From assembly GCA_020346245.1 (NCBI GenBank), contig CP070778.1, positions 2,104,276-2,168,275 of the forward strand: a stretch of 64,000 nucleotides of DNA, in the 5' to 3' direction. The notes beneath the pieces were generated by a model, which saw only the letters and a list, made by a program, of their open reading frames with translations, did not search any database and had not been told where the DNA came from. A program made the position numbers and the translations under genes. Source of the DNA: Flavobacteriaceae bacterium. Lineage in GTDB: Bacteria > Bacteroidota > Bacteroidia > Flavobacteriales > Flavobacteriaceae. Each line of letters opens with the position of its first letter. Position 1 is the first letter of the stretch. Positions 50,057-61,464 of this stretch are shown piece by piece.

Positions 50057-51097
50057 CTAATCTACCTTTTTTATCAGAAAAGCATAGACGGGGAAATGAT
50101 CACTATACCCACCCCGGTAACTTCCGCCCACGTAGGTACGAAAAGGATAACCTTTGTAGTTACCTGTATTAGTCTGCAAAAATGAAGGGTGGTAGATACC
50201 TGTTTTCCAAAATGTATAAGATTTCCTATTCTCATTCATAAGATTTTTTGAGAGTAGGATTTGATCGAACAAACTCCATTGATCACGGTAAGCGAGAGAG
50301 CCTTCACCTTTTTTGTATAAGGACTCCATGGGGTTAACTAGAGATGGACTTTTTTTGTTTTCCCTAGCAGTGGAGGTCAGCGTATTCTTAATGCTACGAT
50401 CAGTGGGATTATCATTCAGGTCTCCCATAGATATTATTTTTGCATCAAAGTTAAGTCTCAATACAGAGTCTATGATTCTTCTGTTGAGTCTGGCAGCAGC
50501 TTTTCTATATGGACTGCTTCTTGCCACACCTCCACTACGGGAAGGCCAATGGTTAACTATGATATAGAACTTCTCGCCTTCTAATAGCCCTTCTACTACA
50601 AGCTGATCCCTTGTATAATCTCGTTGATCAGAATCATTGAATATCAAAAGTCTTTGGCTTTTAAATGAGGTGGGAATGAACCTGTCGCTTTTGTATATTA
50701 AAGCCACATCAATACCCCTTTCATCCGGAGAATCATAATGAATTATTTTGAAGTCATAAGGACGAAGAATCGGATGATTTACTAAGTCCTTTATTACGTT
50801 CAGATTTTCAACTTCACAGAGACCTACTATATCCGGACAAGTTTGGGTAATTGATCTCCCAATCTTTGAGATCACTTCAGCTATAAGGCTGATTTTAAGC
50901 CTGTAACGCTGAAAAGTCCAGTTATAATTTCCATCAGGGGTCATTTCATCATCAAAGTACAATGAGTCATTAATTGTATCAAAAAGGTTTTCAACATTGT
51001 AGAAAGCAATGGTTCGCACACTAAAGAGACCTTCACTTTGTGATTGAGCCATATTTGCTATAAGCAAGCCAATTAAAAACATGATTTTTATGTCCAT
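50057..51097 (-). CDS. Secreted endonuclease/exonuclease/phosphatase (EEP) family protein
   Basis: A 346-residue exported protein (signal IKIMFLIGLLIANMAQSQS). EEP motifs are present in order: FYNVENLFDTIND with the metal Asn and Glu, DIVGLCEVEN, GIDVALIYKSDRF, VNHWPSRSGG, MGDLNDNPTD and YSDHFPVYAF with the catalytic Asp-His. It is therefore a likely phosphodiesterase acting on nucleic acid outside the cytoplasm. It is divergent from, and 117 bp away from, a TonB receptor and an OB-fold/lamin-tail lipoprotein, the same domains that are fused in ExeM-type nucleases. Confidence 0.9.
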   Translation of the reverse strand: MDIKIMFLIGLLIANMAQSQSEGLFSVRTIAFYNVENLFDTINDSLYFDDEMTPDGNYNWTFQRYRLKISLIAEVISKIGRSITQTCPDIVGLCEVENLNVIKDLVNHPILRPYDFKIIHYDSPDERGIDVALIYKSDRFIPTSFKSQRLLIFNDSDQRDYTRDQLVVEGLLEGEKFYIIVNHWPSRSGGVARSSPYRKAAARLNRRIIDSVLRLNFDAKIISMGDLNDNPTDRSIKNTLTSTARENKKSPSLVNPMESLYKKGEGSLAYRDQWSLFDQILLSKNLMNENRKSYTFWKTGIYHPSFLQTNTGNYKGYPFRTYVGGSYRGGYSDHFPVYAFLIKKVD

Positions 51098-51214
51098 AGT
51101 GCTTTATTTTCCAAATTAGTTCCAACCTGTTTCCATTTGCAATTTATACCCGCATGCCGCAAGCAAAATGCAGCAGGCAAGAATACTTTCGACCTGAATC
51201 TTATAGAAATTTAA

Positions 51215-53953
51215 ATGCAATTTATCCACGCTATTTTTATTGTATTATTTCTAATCCAGGGAGTTAGTGCACAGCAAATAAGTATTAATGGGAGTATTGG
51301 GGATGCTCAAAGCCTACTTGCAATATCAAACGCTACTATTGAAATTGAGGGAACCAGCTTAAACGTTATTACCAATATAGATGGGAGTTTTAGATTAGTT
51401 ACATCTTTTAAGGGAGATTTTATTATATCAATTAAGGCCAGGGAATATATTGAAAAACGGTTGCCCGTAGAGATTTCCAATGATGAATTAAAGTTGGGCC
51501 GCATATTAATTGAAAAGGATTTTAGCATTGATCAAAATGAAATTTTAATAACACTTACGGATAACCAGGTTATTGATGGGGAAATGGAGGGAGGAAATTT
51601 AGGAATGTTGACAGCCACGCGCGATGTTTTTTTAAACCGTGCAGCCTTTGATTTTGGACAAGTTTTTTTCAAAGTGAAGGGTTATGACTCACAAAATGGC
51701 AGCGTATTAATAAATGGTATTCTTATGAATAAACTTCGTGACGGGAGGCCGCAATGGAACAATTGGGGTGGTCTGAATGATGTAACAAGGAACCAGGATT
51801 TTAACTTAGGACTACAATCATCTCCGTATGGGTTTGGCGGACTACTGGGGGTTACGAATATTGATACAAGACCATCAGGTCTTCGGCCCGGGTTTAAATT
51901 ATCCTGCTCTCTTTCTAATCGTATTTATTCAGGGCGTATTATGGCAAGCTATACCTCCAGAAAGAATGGAAGTGATTTGCACTACTCGCTTGCGGCATCA
52001 AGAAGATGGGCCAGGGAAGGATATGTAAACGGAACATTATATGATGCCTTTTCTATATATGGAGCAATAGAATATCAATTCAATACCACTAATAGTTTGC
52101 TCTTTACAGGTATACTTTCTTCCAATCGTCGTGGAAGTTCAGCCGCCATAACCGAGGAGGCATATAATTTGGCGGGTAGTAGGTACAATCCCTATTGGGG
52201 AATTCAGAACGGTCACTTTCGCAACTCCAGGGAGCGTAAAATATTGGAACCCTTATTTATGCTTAATTATATAGGCAGATTTAAAAAACTACATATCAAT
52301 ACAGCCATATCTTACCAATTTGGCAACTTTGCAAAAAGTAGAATAGGATATTACAACGCTCCCAATCCGGATCGCACTTATTATAGATATTTACCAAGCT
52401 TTTATGTAAACAGTCCTATTGGCGCAAATTTTTTAAATGCCGATTTGGCTAAACAGTCCTTTTTATTAAACCCGCAATTACAGTGGCATAGCCTCTACAA
52501 TGCAAATACGACTAACTCTGGAAATGGGATGGCTGCTTATGTATTGTATGATGATGCTACTTCGGACAAACAATTGACGCTCAATACTACCTTTAATATT
52601 ATGCCCAATGAGGTGTTCTCTGTGGATATGAATATGTCTTATAGAAGCACTATTTCTCATAATTATGCCAAAATACAAGACCTATTGGGGGCGGATTATC
52701 ATGCAGACAAAGACCCTTTTTCTGATACCAGAAATGATCTGGAGGGCAAATTGAAAAAGGGTGAAGGCGACATCTTCAATTATGATTATACTTTCAATTA
52801 TCAGGTGTTTGATGCTTTTGCCCAAATGAGGGTCGACAAAAGTAAATGGAGTTTTTTTCTGGCGGCGAACTACAACAATACCAGGTACCAACGAAATGGA
52901 CATTTTTTTAATGAACGCTTCCCGGAAAATTCACTGGGAAAGAGCAATCCACTTCAATTCAGTAATTATGGGCTTAAAGGAGGGTTTACTTATAAATTAA
53001 ATCTGAGACAATGGATTAGTACAAATGGGATGCTCTTAAACAGAGCCCCTTTAATAGTAAACTCCTTTATAAACCCAAGGGAGAACAACACAATTGTGCC
53101 TAATTTAAATAAAGAAAAAATAACAGGTATAGCTATCAACTACTTTACCAGATTTCCAAACCTAATAGGAAGATTAACCTGCTTTTACACTCGTTTTCAA
53201 CAACTTACAGATGTTAATTTCTTCTTTGTTGATGCCGGAGTTGGTTCAGATTTTGTGCAAGAAGTAATTACAAACCTGGATAAACTTAACATGGGCGTTG
53301 AGAGCGGCTTGTCTTACCAGCTCTCTTCATCTGTGAATTTATCCGGGGCTGTTGCATTAGGGAAATATGTTTATGCCAGTGATCCTAATCTGGCGATAAA
53401 TTTTGATACTGCCGGTAGTGAAGAGGATTTAATTACGATTGAAGGAACAAAAGACCTGGGAATAGCCCAAATTAAAAATTATAAGTTGCCAAACGGTCCT
53501 CAAATTGCGCTGTCGCTTGGAGTGGACTACAGAGATCCCAAATTTTGGTGGATTGGTGCAAAAATGAATTATCTGACAGAAAATTATACCAGTATATCAG
53601 TTATAAGACGAACCCGGAGTTTTTATTTAAATCCCGAAACAGGCCAACAATTTGAAAATTTGAATTTAGAATATGCAGATAGGTTATTAAATCAAAATGC
53701 TTTAGGCAACATATATCTATTAAACCTGGTAGGAGGAAAATCCTGGTTATTAAATGGAAAGTATATAAGTGTATTTGCCAGCATTAATAATGTATTCGAT
53801 ACCGCATTTAGAACAGGAGGTTATGAACAAAACAGGAATGGTAATTACGGACAGTTAGCTCAGGATAATCAAAGTGGTTCACCATCATTTGGACCGAAGT
53901 ATTGGTTTGGTTATGGAAGAACAATTTTTTTGAATCTTGCCATAAGTTTTTAA
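51215..53953 (+). CDS. TonB-dependent receptor-like outer-membrane protein
   Basis: A 912-residue protein with a signal peptide (FIHAIFIVLFLIQGVSAQQ), a carboxypeptidase-like regulatory domain (about 20-100), a plug and a large barrel ending in NLAISF. The plug is divergent: AFDFGQVFFKVKGYDSQNGS, then GVTNIDTRPSGLRPGF, without the usual LRG and YG motifs in full. The ligand is unknown. Its genomic partners, a secreted nuclease and an OB/lamin-tail lipoprotein, suggest uptake linked to nucleic-acid breakdown products. The lipoprotein starts 40 bp downstream. Confidence 0.85.
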   Translation: MQFIHAIFIVLFLIQGVSAQQISINGSIGDAQSLLAISNATIEIEGTSLNVITNIDGSFRLVTSFKGDFIISIKAREYIEKRLPVEISNDELKLGRILIEKDFSIDQNEILITLTDNQVIDGEMEGGNLGMLTATRDVFLNRAAFDFGQVFFKVKGYDSQNGSVLINGILMNKLRDGRPQWNNWGGLNDVTRNQDFNLGLQSSPYGFGGLLGVTNIDTRPSGLRPGFKLSCSLSNRIYSGRIMASYTSRKNGSDLHYSLAASRRWAREGYVNGTLYDAFSIYGAIEYQFNTTNSLLFTGILSSNRRGSSAAITEEAYNLAGSRYNPYWGIQNGHFRNSRERKILEPLFMLNYIGRFKKLHINTAISYQFGNFAKSRIGYYNAPNPDRTYYRYLPSFYVNSPIGANFLNADLAKQSFLLNPQLQWHSLYNANTTNSGNGMAAYVLYDDATSDKQLTLNTTFNIMPNEVFSVDMNMSYRSTISHNYAKIQDLLGADYHADKDPFSDTRNDLEGKLKKGEGDIFNYDYTFNYQVFDAFAQMRVDKSKWSFFLAANYNNTRYQRNGHFFNERFPENSLGKSNPLQFSNYGLKGGFTYKLNLRQWISTNGMLLNRAPLIVNSFINPRENNTIVPNLNKEKITGIAINYFTRFPNLIGRLTCFYTRFQQLTDVNFFFVDAGVGSDFVQEVITNLDKLNMGVESGLSYQLSSSVNLSGAVALGKYVYASDPNLAINFDTAGSEEDLITIEGTKDLGIAQIKNYKLPNGPQIALSLGVDYRDPKFWWIGAKMNYLTENYTSISVIRRTRSFYLNPETGQQFENLNLEYADRLLNQNALGNIYLLNLVGGKSWLLNGKYISVFASINNVFDTAFRTGGYEQNRNGNYGQLAQDNQSGSPSFGPKYWFGYGRTIFLNLAISF

Positions 53954-53993
53954 ATCAAAAAAGAGACAATAATTGAATATTAGAACTATAAAA

Positions 53994-55367
53994 ATGAAAA
54001 TAATAAGGCAATGTAATCCAAGTATTGTATTTAAATATTGTTGTTTGCTTTTTATTTTCAGCTGTGTAAAAGATCCGGAATTCAAAGTTCCGGAAACTTC
54101 CTGTAATGACCAATTAATAACTAATAGTACTTTTAATGAAGTCAAAGACTTAGTTATAGATGACATTATACAAATACAGCAAGATTTAATAATTGCAGGG
54201 TATGTTATATCCTCAGATCAGGAGGGCAATTTTTTTAGTACAATTCATGTACAAGATGATGCAATAAAGCCCACTTCGGGTTTTCAAGTTGAAATAGATC
54301 TAAGGGATTCTTATTTGTTTTACGAAGCAGGTAGCAAAGTTTATATAAGACTGAAGGGTCTTTATTTAGGTAAAAGTAAAGGGGTTTACAAACTTGGAGG
54401 TGTATTTACGTCTTTTGGAAAATTAAGCGTAGGAAGATTACCCGCCCTGGCAGTAAAGGACCATCTGATTCTTTCATGTGAACCTGTTAGTAAATTGGTT
54501 CCATCAGTTACAACAATACCACAACTTAACGAAGAACTTGTCAGCACTTTAGTGAGATTTGAAAGTATGGAGATCATAGCGGAGGAACAAAATATGACTT
54601 TTGCTTTTCCAAAGGAGGAGACTATTAGGAATCTTATGAATTGCAATGGGGATATGATTGAATTATTAAATAGTGGGTATTCTGATTTTCAGGATAAAAT
54701 ACTCCCTTCCGGGAATGGATCTGTTACAGCAGTGCTTTACAGAGAAAACGATGATTATCAATTAATTATTCGTGGGTTAAACGATTTAAATCTGACAAGT
54801 GAGCGATGTATAGATGCCGAAGTCTTTTTGACATCAGACCAGGTATTTATATCAGAGTTAGCTGATCCTAATAATAATGCTGAAGCCCGATTTATTGAAC
54901 TTTACAATGCGGGTAATGATCCGTTGCTATTAAATGGTTGGGTTTTAGTAAGATACACCAACGAAAATGATACCGCAAGCTCGGAAATAGATCTTTCAGG
55001 TATAATAATTGAATCAAATAGCACCCTGGTTTTCTCGCCAAATGCCATGGAATTTGAGAGTGTATATGGTTTCCTTCCAGATTTTGAAACTGGAAATAAT
55101 AGTCCTGCAGATTCCAATGGTGATGATAATTTAGTGCTTATTGACCCCTTTGGAGCCGTAATTGACATCTTTGGACTTATAGGCGAAGATGGTTCGGGTA
55201 CAAATCATGAATTTGAAGATGGAAAAGCAGAAAGGAATTCAAATATTAGTCAAGGAAATTCTGTTTTTACTAGTAGTGAATGGACCATTTATAATGATAC
55301 CGGAGGTCTTGAAACATTAAATTTACCACAGAATGCCCCTGAAGATTTTTCTCCGGGAATCCGCTGA
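53994..55367 (+). CDS. DUF5689 (OB-fold) plus lamin-tail domain lipoprotein
   Basis: The start chosen is ATG at 53994; a TTG seven codons earlier gives no signal advantage. The 457-residue product has a lipobox (CCLLFIFSC) and should be a surface or periplasmic lipoprotein. A DUF5689 OB-like domain covers about 35-220 (IAGYVISSDQEGNFFSTIHV). A lamin-tail domain follows near 275-400, with VFISELADPNNNAEARFIEL and LLLNGWVLVRYTNENDTASS. Both domains also occur in secreted nucleases of the ExeM/NucH type. It is encoded directly after the TonB receptor. Confidence 0.85.
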   Translation: MKIIRQCNPSIVFKYCCLLFIFSCVKDPEFKVPETSCNDQLITNSTFNEVKDLVIDDIIQIQQDLIIAGYVISSDQEGNFFSTIHVQDDAIKPTSGFQVEIDLRDSYLFYEAGSKVYIRLKGLYLGKSKGVYKLGGVFTSFGKLSVGRLPALAVKDHLILSCEPVSKLVPSVTTIPQLNEELVSTLVRFESMEIIAEEQNMTFAFPKEETIRNLMNCNGDMIELLNSGYSDFQDKILPSGNGSVTAVLYRENDDYQLIIRGLNDLNLTSERCIDAEVFLTSDQVFISELADPNNNAEARFIELYNAGNDPLLLNGWVLVRYTNENDTASSEIDLSGIIIESNSTLVFSPNAMEFESVYGFLPDFETGNNSPADSNGDDNLVLIDPFGAVIDIFGLIGEDGSGTNHEFEDGKAERNSNISQGNSVFTSSEWTIYNDTGGLETLNLPQNAPEDFSPGIR

Positions 55368-60759: not shown

Positions 60760-61464
60760 TTAAGGAACAACCGCCATCGCAGCAACTGAAACACTAACAT
60801 CTTTTGCCTTTTTTATTGCCCGTGTGCAGGCTTCTATCGTAGCACCGGTTGTAATGACATCATCAATCAATAACACATTTTTATTACACAAAAACTCGGG
60901 ATGAGTCACTTTGTACAGATCGGGCATACCCCTCCATCGATATAACCTGTTTTTCTTGGTTTGAGTTCGTGTATTTGCTGTCTTTACAAGAATATGCTCC
61001 ATATAACTGGCATTTAGGTGTTCTGCAATTCGTTTTGCAAACCCGGAAACCTGATTATACCCTCGTTTTTTAAGCTTTTTTTTATGCAATGGAACGGGTA
61101 TTACAATATCAATATAGTTTAATGCGTTTCGTTCTTTTAAAACCTGGCCATACCAGTTCCCTATAAATTGGCCTATATGAGGTTGATTTTTATACTTTAG
61201 ATAGTGGATTAAATTTTTAACAATCCCCTGATCGGAATAAAAAAGGAAGGCAGAGGCCTTTTTTATGTCAATTCGGCCATAAAATATTTTATCCACTGCA
61301 TTTTGTTCGATAAAATTGTATTCGGTAAGTGGTATTTGGTTCCGACAAAGGGTACACAATAGCTGCTCTCCTCGATATAATTGAGCATTACATCCAAAAC
61401 ACAGCCTCGGTAGAAGTACCGTGTTGATATCATTTATTATATTTGATAGCTTGGAAAAGTACAA
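60760..61464 (-). CDS. comF: ComF family phosphoribosyltransferase-like protein
   Basis: A 234-residue protein. An N-terminal zinc finger has four cysteines (CFGCNAQLYRGEQLLCTLCR). The phosphoribosyltransferase domain includes VIPVPLHKKKLKKRGYNQ and the PRPP-binding motif NVLLIDDVITTGATIEACTR. In other bacteria ComF/GntX is needed for DNA uptake and natural transformation. It is divergent from the coiled-coil protein gene, 40 bp away. Confidence 0.93.
   Translation of the reverse strand: MYFSKLSNIINDINTVLLPRLCFGCNAQLYRGEQLLCTLCRNQIPLTEYNFIEQNAVDKIFYGRIDIKKASAFLFYSDQGIVKNLIHYLKYKNQPHIGQFIGNWYGQVLKERNALNYIDIVIPVPLHKKKLKKRGYNQVSGFAKRIAEHLNASYMEHILVKTANTRTQTKKNRLYRWRGMPDLYKVTHPEFLCNKNVLLIDDVITTGATIEACTRAIKKAKDVSVSVAAMAVVP

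Follow-up and report, generated by a model that had tools for sequence, protein, structure and literature searches.

Architecture of the locus

The window analyzed here is a stretch of 64,000 nucleotides from a Flavobacteriaceae genome. It contains three genes that a first-pass annotation had grouped together, and we find all three, with the coordinates, spacing and orientation that it gave. On the minus strand, positions 50057-51097 encode a 346-residue nuclease of the endonuclease/exonuclease/phosphatase (EEP) family, with a signal peptide and an EEP domain spanning residues 29-342 (positions 50072-51013; PF19580, E = 2.6e-118). A divergent intergenic region of 117 bp (51098-51214) separates this gene from a plus-strand gene at 51215-53953, which encodes a 912-residue outer-membrane protein with the fold of a TonB-dependent receptor. 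The receptor carries a CarboxypepD_reg-like domain (Pfam; about 51284-51532) and a low-confidence TonB-box-like stretch (about 51521-51622) that precedes the plug and barrel, and its sequence ends in -F. Next on the plus strand lies the gene for a 457-residue surface lipoprotein (53994-55367). The most likely true start codon is the ATG at 53994; it leaves 40 bp after the receptor stop codon and is followed by a lipobox (FIFSC-VKDPE, Cys24), and the acidic residues beyond that lipobox are reminiscent of the signal for surface export in lipoproteins of Bacteroidota. Non-adjacent to these genes, a competence-associated ComF-family phosphoribosyltransferase is encoded on the minus strand at 60760-61464 (TIGR00201, E = 2.2e-21, below the curated cut-off).

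The receptor is a divergent TonB-type barrel

Pfam detects only the CarboxypepD_reg-like domain in the window receptor and matches none of its TonB models, because the barrel is too divergent: across 52 aligned homologs, Plug is matched in 18 and the TonB barrel model in five, with the CarboxypepD domain in all 52. Sequence searches for solved relatives of the receptor, the lipoprotein and the EEP protein returned nothing useful, one of them yielding CarboxypepD-like folds only. An AlphaFold model of the receptor (pLDDT 82.5, pTM 0.78) adopts the fold of TonB-dependent transporters, and matches PqqU (Foldseek E = 7.8e-27), YncD (Z = 23.1, 589 residues at 3.5 Å) and the BtuB chains of B. thetaiotaomicron (Z about 22). 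The model thus places the protein among plugged outer-membrane barrels of the TBDR fold, and the TonB receptor claimed at first pass holds up as a TonB-type barrel with a surface-lipoprotein partner. We infer that the receptor interacts with TonB and is energized by it.

The lipoprotein carries a module modeled as tandem OB folds

Both domains previously assigned to the lipoprotein are matched by Pfam: DUF5689 at 54120-54785 (PF18942, E = 1.2e-63 to 1.3e-63) and a lamin-tail domain (LTD) at 54837-55175 (PF00932, E = 5.9e-12 to 6.2e-12). No SusD-family match is found by Pfam in this protein. The lamin-tail domain is restricted to close relatives, being present in all seven of the nearest relatives scanned and in one of 48 proteins of a broad set; beyond close relatives, DUF5017/choice-of-anchor J stands in its place. 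DUF5689 is modeled as two OB folds with high confidence (pLDDT about 97), and the protein's C-terminus is modeled poorly (pLDDT about 40). The best solved matches to the whole of DUF5689 are the HIN domains of IFI16, p202 and p204 (E = 6.9e-5), with telomere-end-binding proteins ranking lower. Residues 36-171 and 169-275 each align to single OB folds with Z about 9, many OB folds being matched. The model and its structural matches bear out the earlier description of DUF5689 as OB-like.

We propose that DUF5689 may bind DNA, as the modeled likeness to HIN and telomere-end-binding OB folds would fit, although OB folds bind many ligands. The DUF5689 module of the window protein is acidic, with a net charge of -12 against a family median of -3.5; it is therefore poorly suited to strong non-specific DNA binding, and this counts against the role in DNA uptake that we favor below.

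One locus (L040, 8562-16838) holds a tandem receptor-lipoprotein-receptor-lipoprotein array whose first lipoprotein has three DUF5689 repeats and a lamin tail, and many Flavobacterium loci (L184, L186, L191-L194, L198, L200, L217 and others) carry an extra short DUF5689-like open reading frame of about 210 residues in the interval between receptor and lipoprotein.

The EEP protein is a predicted periplasmic nuclease

The EEP protein begins with a hydrophobic N-terminal signal, MDIKIMFLIGLLIANMAQSQ, and belongs to the nuclease family PF19580 by both family match and intact metal/catalytic motifs. The motif residues N34, E36, E95, D125, R127, D130, N182, H183, D226, N228, S332, D333 and H334 are invariant in 29 homologs. 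Every homolog terminates at the EEP domain and every one is basic (median pI 8.8). The protein is predicted from its sequence to hydrolyze DNA, although the EEP superfamily also includes phosphatases and phospholipases. The protein has no lipobox, and a profile scan gave no match to a type IX secretion tail. Since the protein has a signal peptide and lacks these two features, a periplasmic location is more likely, making the earlier label of a secreted nuclease doubtful. A periplasmic enzyme fits the processing of imported DNA better than it fits extracellular cutting.

The first-pass annotation had also read the locus as a split version of the ExeM/NucH nucleases, and here our data lend no support. 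The EEP, OB-type and lamin-tail domains are indeed common to both sets, and the ExeM/NucH DNase family is the only profile relative of the EEP protein in NCBIfam. That match is weak, however, at 41.6 bits against a cut-off of 300 for the single-chain family (NF033681), and the window parts are separate genes. Furthermore, unlike ExeM/NucH, the window nuclease has no secretion or sorting tail, the lamin tail of the window lipoprotein is not conserved, and the window receptor has no ExeM/NucH counterpart. By the family score and the distribution of the lamin tail, a split-ExeM origin is not supported.

The three genes form a conserved unit

Loss of linkage among the three genes in relatives had been named beforehand as an outcome that would refute a common system, and we find the linkage conserved. 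We sampled 41 loci, almost every one from a different genus. The EEP gene lies next to the receptor gene in divergent orientation in 37 of them, and the DUF5689 lipoprotein gene lies immediately 3' of the receptor on the same strand in 39. The next commonest neighbor family occurs in 17 of the 41 and is never adjacent. We could thus reject leftover synteny as the source of the linkage, since no other neighbor persists in more than 17 of the 41. A wider set of 170 loci shows a divergent EEP gene within 2 kb of the receptor in 137 (median gap 159 bp). Of 20 receptor loci sampled from other orders, 14 share the divergent arrangement, and in one the EEP gene is co-directional. The linkage is far beyond chance.

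Examining 80 named loci reveals that the pattern is kept in Chryseobacterium, Epilithonimonas, Kaistella, Elizabethkingia, Empedobacter and most Flavobacterium; one clade of the last genus has lost it. Where the genes are separated, as in that clade, an EEP orthologue is still present in all 26 genomes searched; in the clade itself it lies mostly 16-55 kb away. Two contigs labeled as 'Rhizobium' and 'Candidatus Nitrotoga' MAGs (L191 and L195) also bear a Flavobacterium-type locus, most likely through binning contamination.

The partners are also inherited together. A strong receptor match was obtained in 63 of 295 Bacteroidia genomes. Of these 63, 60 also have an EEP match of at least 386 bits, a score that none of the 232 receptor-negative genomes attains, their best EEP paralogs reaching 369 bits or less. 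In the three exceptions, the EEP gene close to the receptor scores 335-366 bits. The associated Fisher value of 1e-59 is descriptive only, because the 386-bit threshold was chosen after the scores had been seen and the genomes are related and thus non-independent. The three genes are a conserved unit, in which the EEP gene is the near-constant companion of the receptor/lipoprotein pair across a whole class.

The receptor and lipoprotein correspond to a transformation pair of Riemerella

Huang et al. (2021; PMC8459023), who used transposon mutagenesis to screen Riemerella anatipestifer for natural-transformation genes, describe two adjacent genes in a predicted operon: RA0C_RS04915, encoding a carboxypeptidase-regulatory-like outer-membrane protein, and RA0C_RS04920, encoding a DUF5689 protein. 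Markerless deletion of either gene alone abolished transformation, as did loss of ComEC, DprA, ComF or RecA, and the authors proposed that RS04920 binds DNA and that RS04915 carries it across the outer membrane (PMC8459023). They called the nuclease that degrades one strand to produce single-stranded DNA 'unidentified', and RS04910 served them only as an upstream transcription control (PMC8459023). Deletion of tonBA or tonBB also lowers transformation in this species (PMC8383284).

We traced this locus in a genome of a Riemerella-like genus (L125; genome G261, genus g87), equating the two by synteny and lipoprotein family. The gene order there is recA, dinB, sdhB, sdhA, sdhC, comEC, a gap with room for one small gene, a carboxylase, EEP, receptor and lipoprotein; recA, comEC and the lipoprotein were confirmed, and dinB, the sdh genes and the carboxylase were read by eye. 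If recA is RS04870 and each gene along this order adds five to the locus tag, comEC falls on RS04895, its published tag, and the EEP gene on RS04910. The L125 lipoprotein scores above the cut-off of lipo_M949_1556, a family named after a Riemerella gene, and has a choice-of-anchor J domain, as described for RS04920 (PMC8459023). The L125 receptor is 66% identical to a Chryseobacterium receptor, the published figure for RS04915 being 65.9% (PMC8459023).

Between the window and L125, identity is 49% for the EEP protein, 34% for the receptor (over 902 residues) and 27% for the lipoprotein, in agreement with the ranges given for Flavobacteriaceae in PMC8459023. Both genomes have a single strong receptor match, and the window receptor is an orthologous outer-membrane barrel with a carboxypeptidase-regulatory-like N-terminal domain. 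Judged by sequence and gene order, the window receptor and lipoprotein are the orthologues of RA0C_RS04915 and RA0C_RS04920, sharing their order and strand, with a divergent EEP gene beside the pair in the Riemerella-type syntenic locus as in the window. The two loci differ in that the window lipoprotein ends in a lamin-tail domain and the Riemerella type in DUF5017/choice-of-anchor J, and in that comEC and recA adjoin the Riemerella-type locus but not the window locus. The function of the Riemerella pair was established with mutants, whereas the window pair is known from sequence; by orthology, it would function in transformation in the window organism as well.

The EEP gene received no insertion in the published transposon screen. 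With about 1.6 insertions expected, the chance of none is 0.21, and the screen also missed the essential RS04920 (PMC8459023), so this absence says little.

The window genome also holds comEC, dprA, comF, a DUF1343 gene and a gene for a helix-hairpin-helix (HHH) protein, with comF 5 kb from the locus and comEC about 1.1 Mb away. It thus has homologs of the published essential transformation set, with these five as the further members searched for, and the organism may be competent. We know of no competent member of this genus, a point that counts against a role in transformation. The same holds for Flavobacterium johnsoniae, which failed to transform under laboratory conditions despite having homologs of the essential genes (PMC8459023). 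The idea that a lost nuclease explains this failure was rejected, since all 17 genomes searched of a Flavobacterium-like genus (g32) keep an EEP orthologue.

Discussion

The questions addressed here are how DNA passes the outer membrane of Bacteroidia and which nuclease prepares it. A role of the receptor and lipoprotein in transformation is already published for one species, R. anatipestifer (PMC8459023). In the literature searched, we found no report of a constant EEP partner, of its synteny with RS04910 or of its strict co-inheritance with the receptor, nor of a TonB-transporter fold for the receptor or of tandem OB folds in DUF5689. Our data single out one candidate nuclease, whose gene is linked to that of the receptor and inherited with it throughout a whole class.

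We consider it fairly probable that this locus provides natural transformation in Bacteroidia with its outer-membrane DNA-uptake module, driven by TonB and working with a partner nuclease, probably periplasmic, that processes imported DNA. In this model, the surface lipoprotein would capture DNA through its tandem-OB DUF5689 module while sitting on the TonB-dependent-type barrel, much as BtuG sits on BtuB in Bacteroides. TonB energy would then open the plug and admit DNA to the periplasm, a dependence of transformation on TonB having been published for R. anatipestifer. The EEP nuclease, exported by its signal peptide, would meet the incoming duplex in the periplasm and either cut it or digest one of its strands, after which ComEC would move a single strand into the cytoplasm; we put the nuclease forward as a sequence-based candidate for the missing DNA-processing enzyme of transformation. 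A stronger version holds that transformation throughout Bacteroidia relies on a three-part TonB-driven device, made up of a DUF5689 tandem-OB surface receptor for DNA, a TonB-type transporter dedicated to DNA and, as an obligate periplasmic component, the EEP nuclease that makes ComEC's single strand; this version is tentative, and we would sooner doubt than accept it.

The first-pass annotation had proposed a system for binding, cutting and importing extracellular DNA or nucleotides, perhaps for phosphate. Part of that proposal is supported: the unit is conserved, it pairs a TonB-type barrel with a surface lipoprotein, DUF5689 is OB-like, and DNA as cargo fits the Riemerella genetics (PMC8459023, PMC8383284). 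The secreted nuclease and the phosphate purpose are not supported, and the link that the annotation missed is natural transformation. Nutritional scavenging nevertheless deserves consideration as an alternative, in which extracellular DNA or oligonucleotides are imported for phosphate, nitrogen or nucleosides, they are broken down by the EEP enzyme once in the periplasm, and transformation in Riemerella is a by-product. The same anatomy would serve this end, nucleases suit both uses, and mechanistically the two readings are compatible. Additional EEP-like genes adjoin the module in several loci of other orders, and 5'-nucleotidase-like gene pairs lie near two of the 170 loci (L301, 3637-5245, and L306, 12185-13863, one family of another order). 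However, phosphate and nucleotide-salvage genes are not conserved neighbors: nucleotidases and phosphatases are conserved in no neighbor position, on which ground we rejected them as nutritional neighbors, and nucleoside transporters are not conserved neighbors either. Moreover, the published deletions of the orthologues abolish transformation altogether, and R. anatipestifer without phosphate transforms less, not more (PMC8383284). We regard this scavenging reading as rather unlikely.

A quite improbable alternative is that the cargo is not DNA but a phosphorylated or complexed small ligand, with the EEP protein acting as a periplasmic phosphatase or phospholipase and the Riemerella phenotype arising as an indirect envelope effect. 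EEP enzymes are diverse, the barrel's solved relatives carry siderophores, cobalamin, copper and PQQ, the DUF5689 module is acidic, and a related lipoprotein, M949_1556, is reported to affect antigenicity (as cited in PMC4976936). This reading would need to accommodate the finding that both genes are essential in markerless mutants, together with comEC, dprA and comF, as well as the basic charge of every EEP homolog, its weak but sole profile relationship to DNases and the match of DUF5689 to DNA-binding HIN domains. Least probable of all is that the EEP enzyme opposes uptake as a periplasmic guard, degrading DNA that enters through the receptor and so limiting gene transfer: divergent promoters permit separate control and transformation-lowering nucleases occur in other bacteria, such as Dns of Vibrio cholerae, but a mere brake would not usually be kept alongside the receptor almost without exception throughout a class.

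The uptake module that we favor shares features with several known systems. Like BtuB-BtuG and SusC-SusD of Bacteroides, it combines a TonB-dependent-type barrel and a surface lipoprotein encoded by adjacent genes. Its lipoprotein is a DUF5689 tandem-OB protein rather than a SusD-like protein or the propeller of BtuG, which sets it apart from SusC/SusD pairs, and unlike either system it has a nuclease as a third partner. EndA of pneumococcus and NucA of Bacillus subtilis are envelope nucleases that process DNA in transformation, and offer a possible functional parallel for the EEP enzyme; their families are unrelated to it, and they work with pilus-like uptake rather than a TonB-type receptor. 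If the model is true, genomes would predict which Bacteroidota can be naturally competent, with a bearing on gene spread, including that of resistance genes, in water, soil and animal-associated communities.

Paralogs of the receptor and the nuclease occur around and beyond these loci. Several genera have a second, divergent receptor paralog a few kb from the EEP gene on its upstream side, in L036, L037, L039, L042, L043, L044, L046, L114 and L115, and the window's own genome has a distant one about 16 kb beyond the window end (L066, 9945-12731; G000:C1:2183950). Distant receptor paralogs in L057, L058, L059 and L061 are preceded by a short DUF5689-like lipoprotein gene (about 300 residues) and have no EEP gene, perhaps representing a different transport pair. 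Several genera likewise have a second EEP gene of the same family, downstream of and convergent to the lipoprotein gene, in L039, L041, L043, L044, L049, L111, L114, L115 and L209, and elsewhere in the window's own genome (G000:C1:3014241). In other orders, EEP-like open reading frames of a different subfamily, assigned by eye from their N-termini, lie beside the module in L290 (5619-6839), L292 (1-1218), L301 (12414-13610) and L305 (1008-2273).
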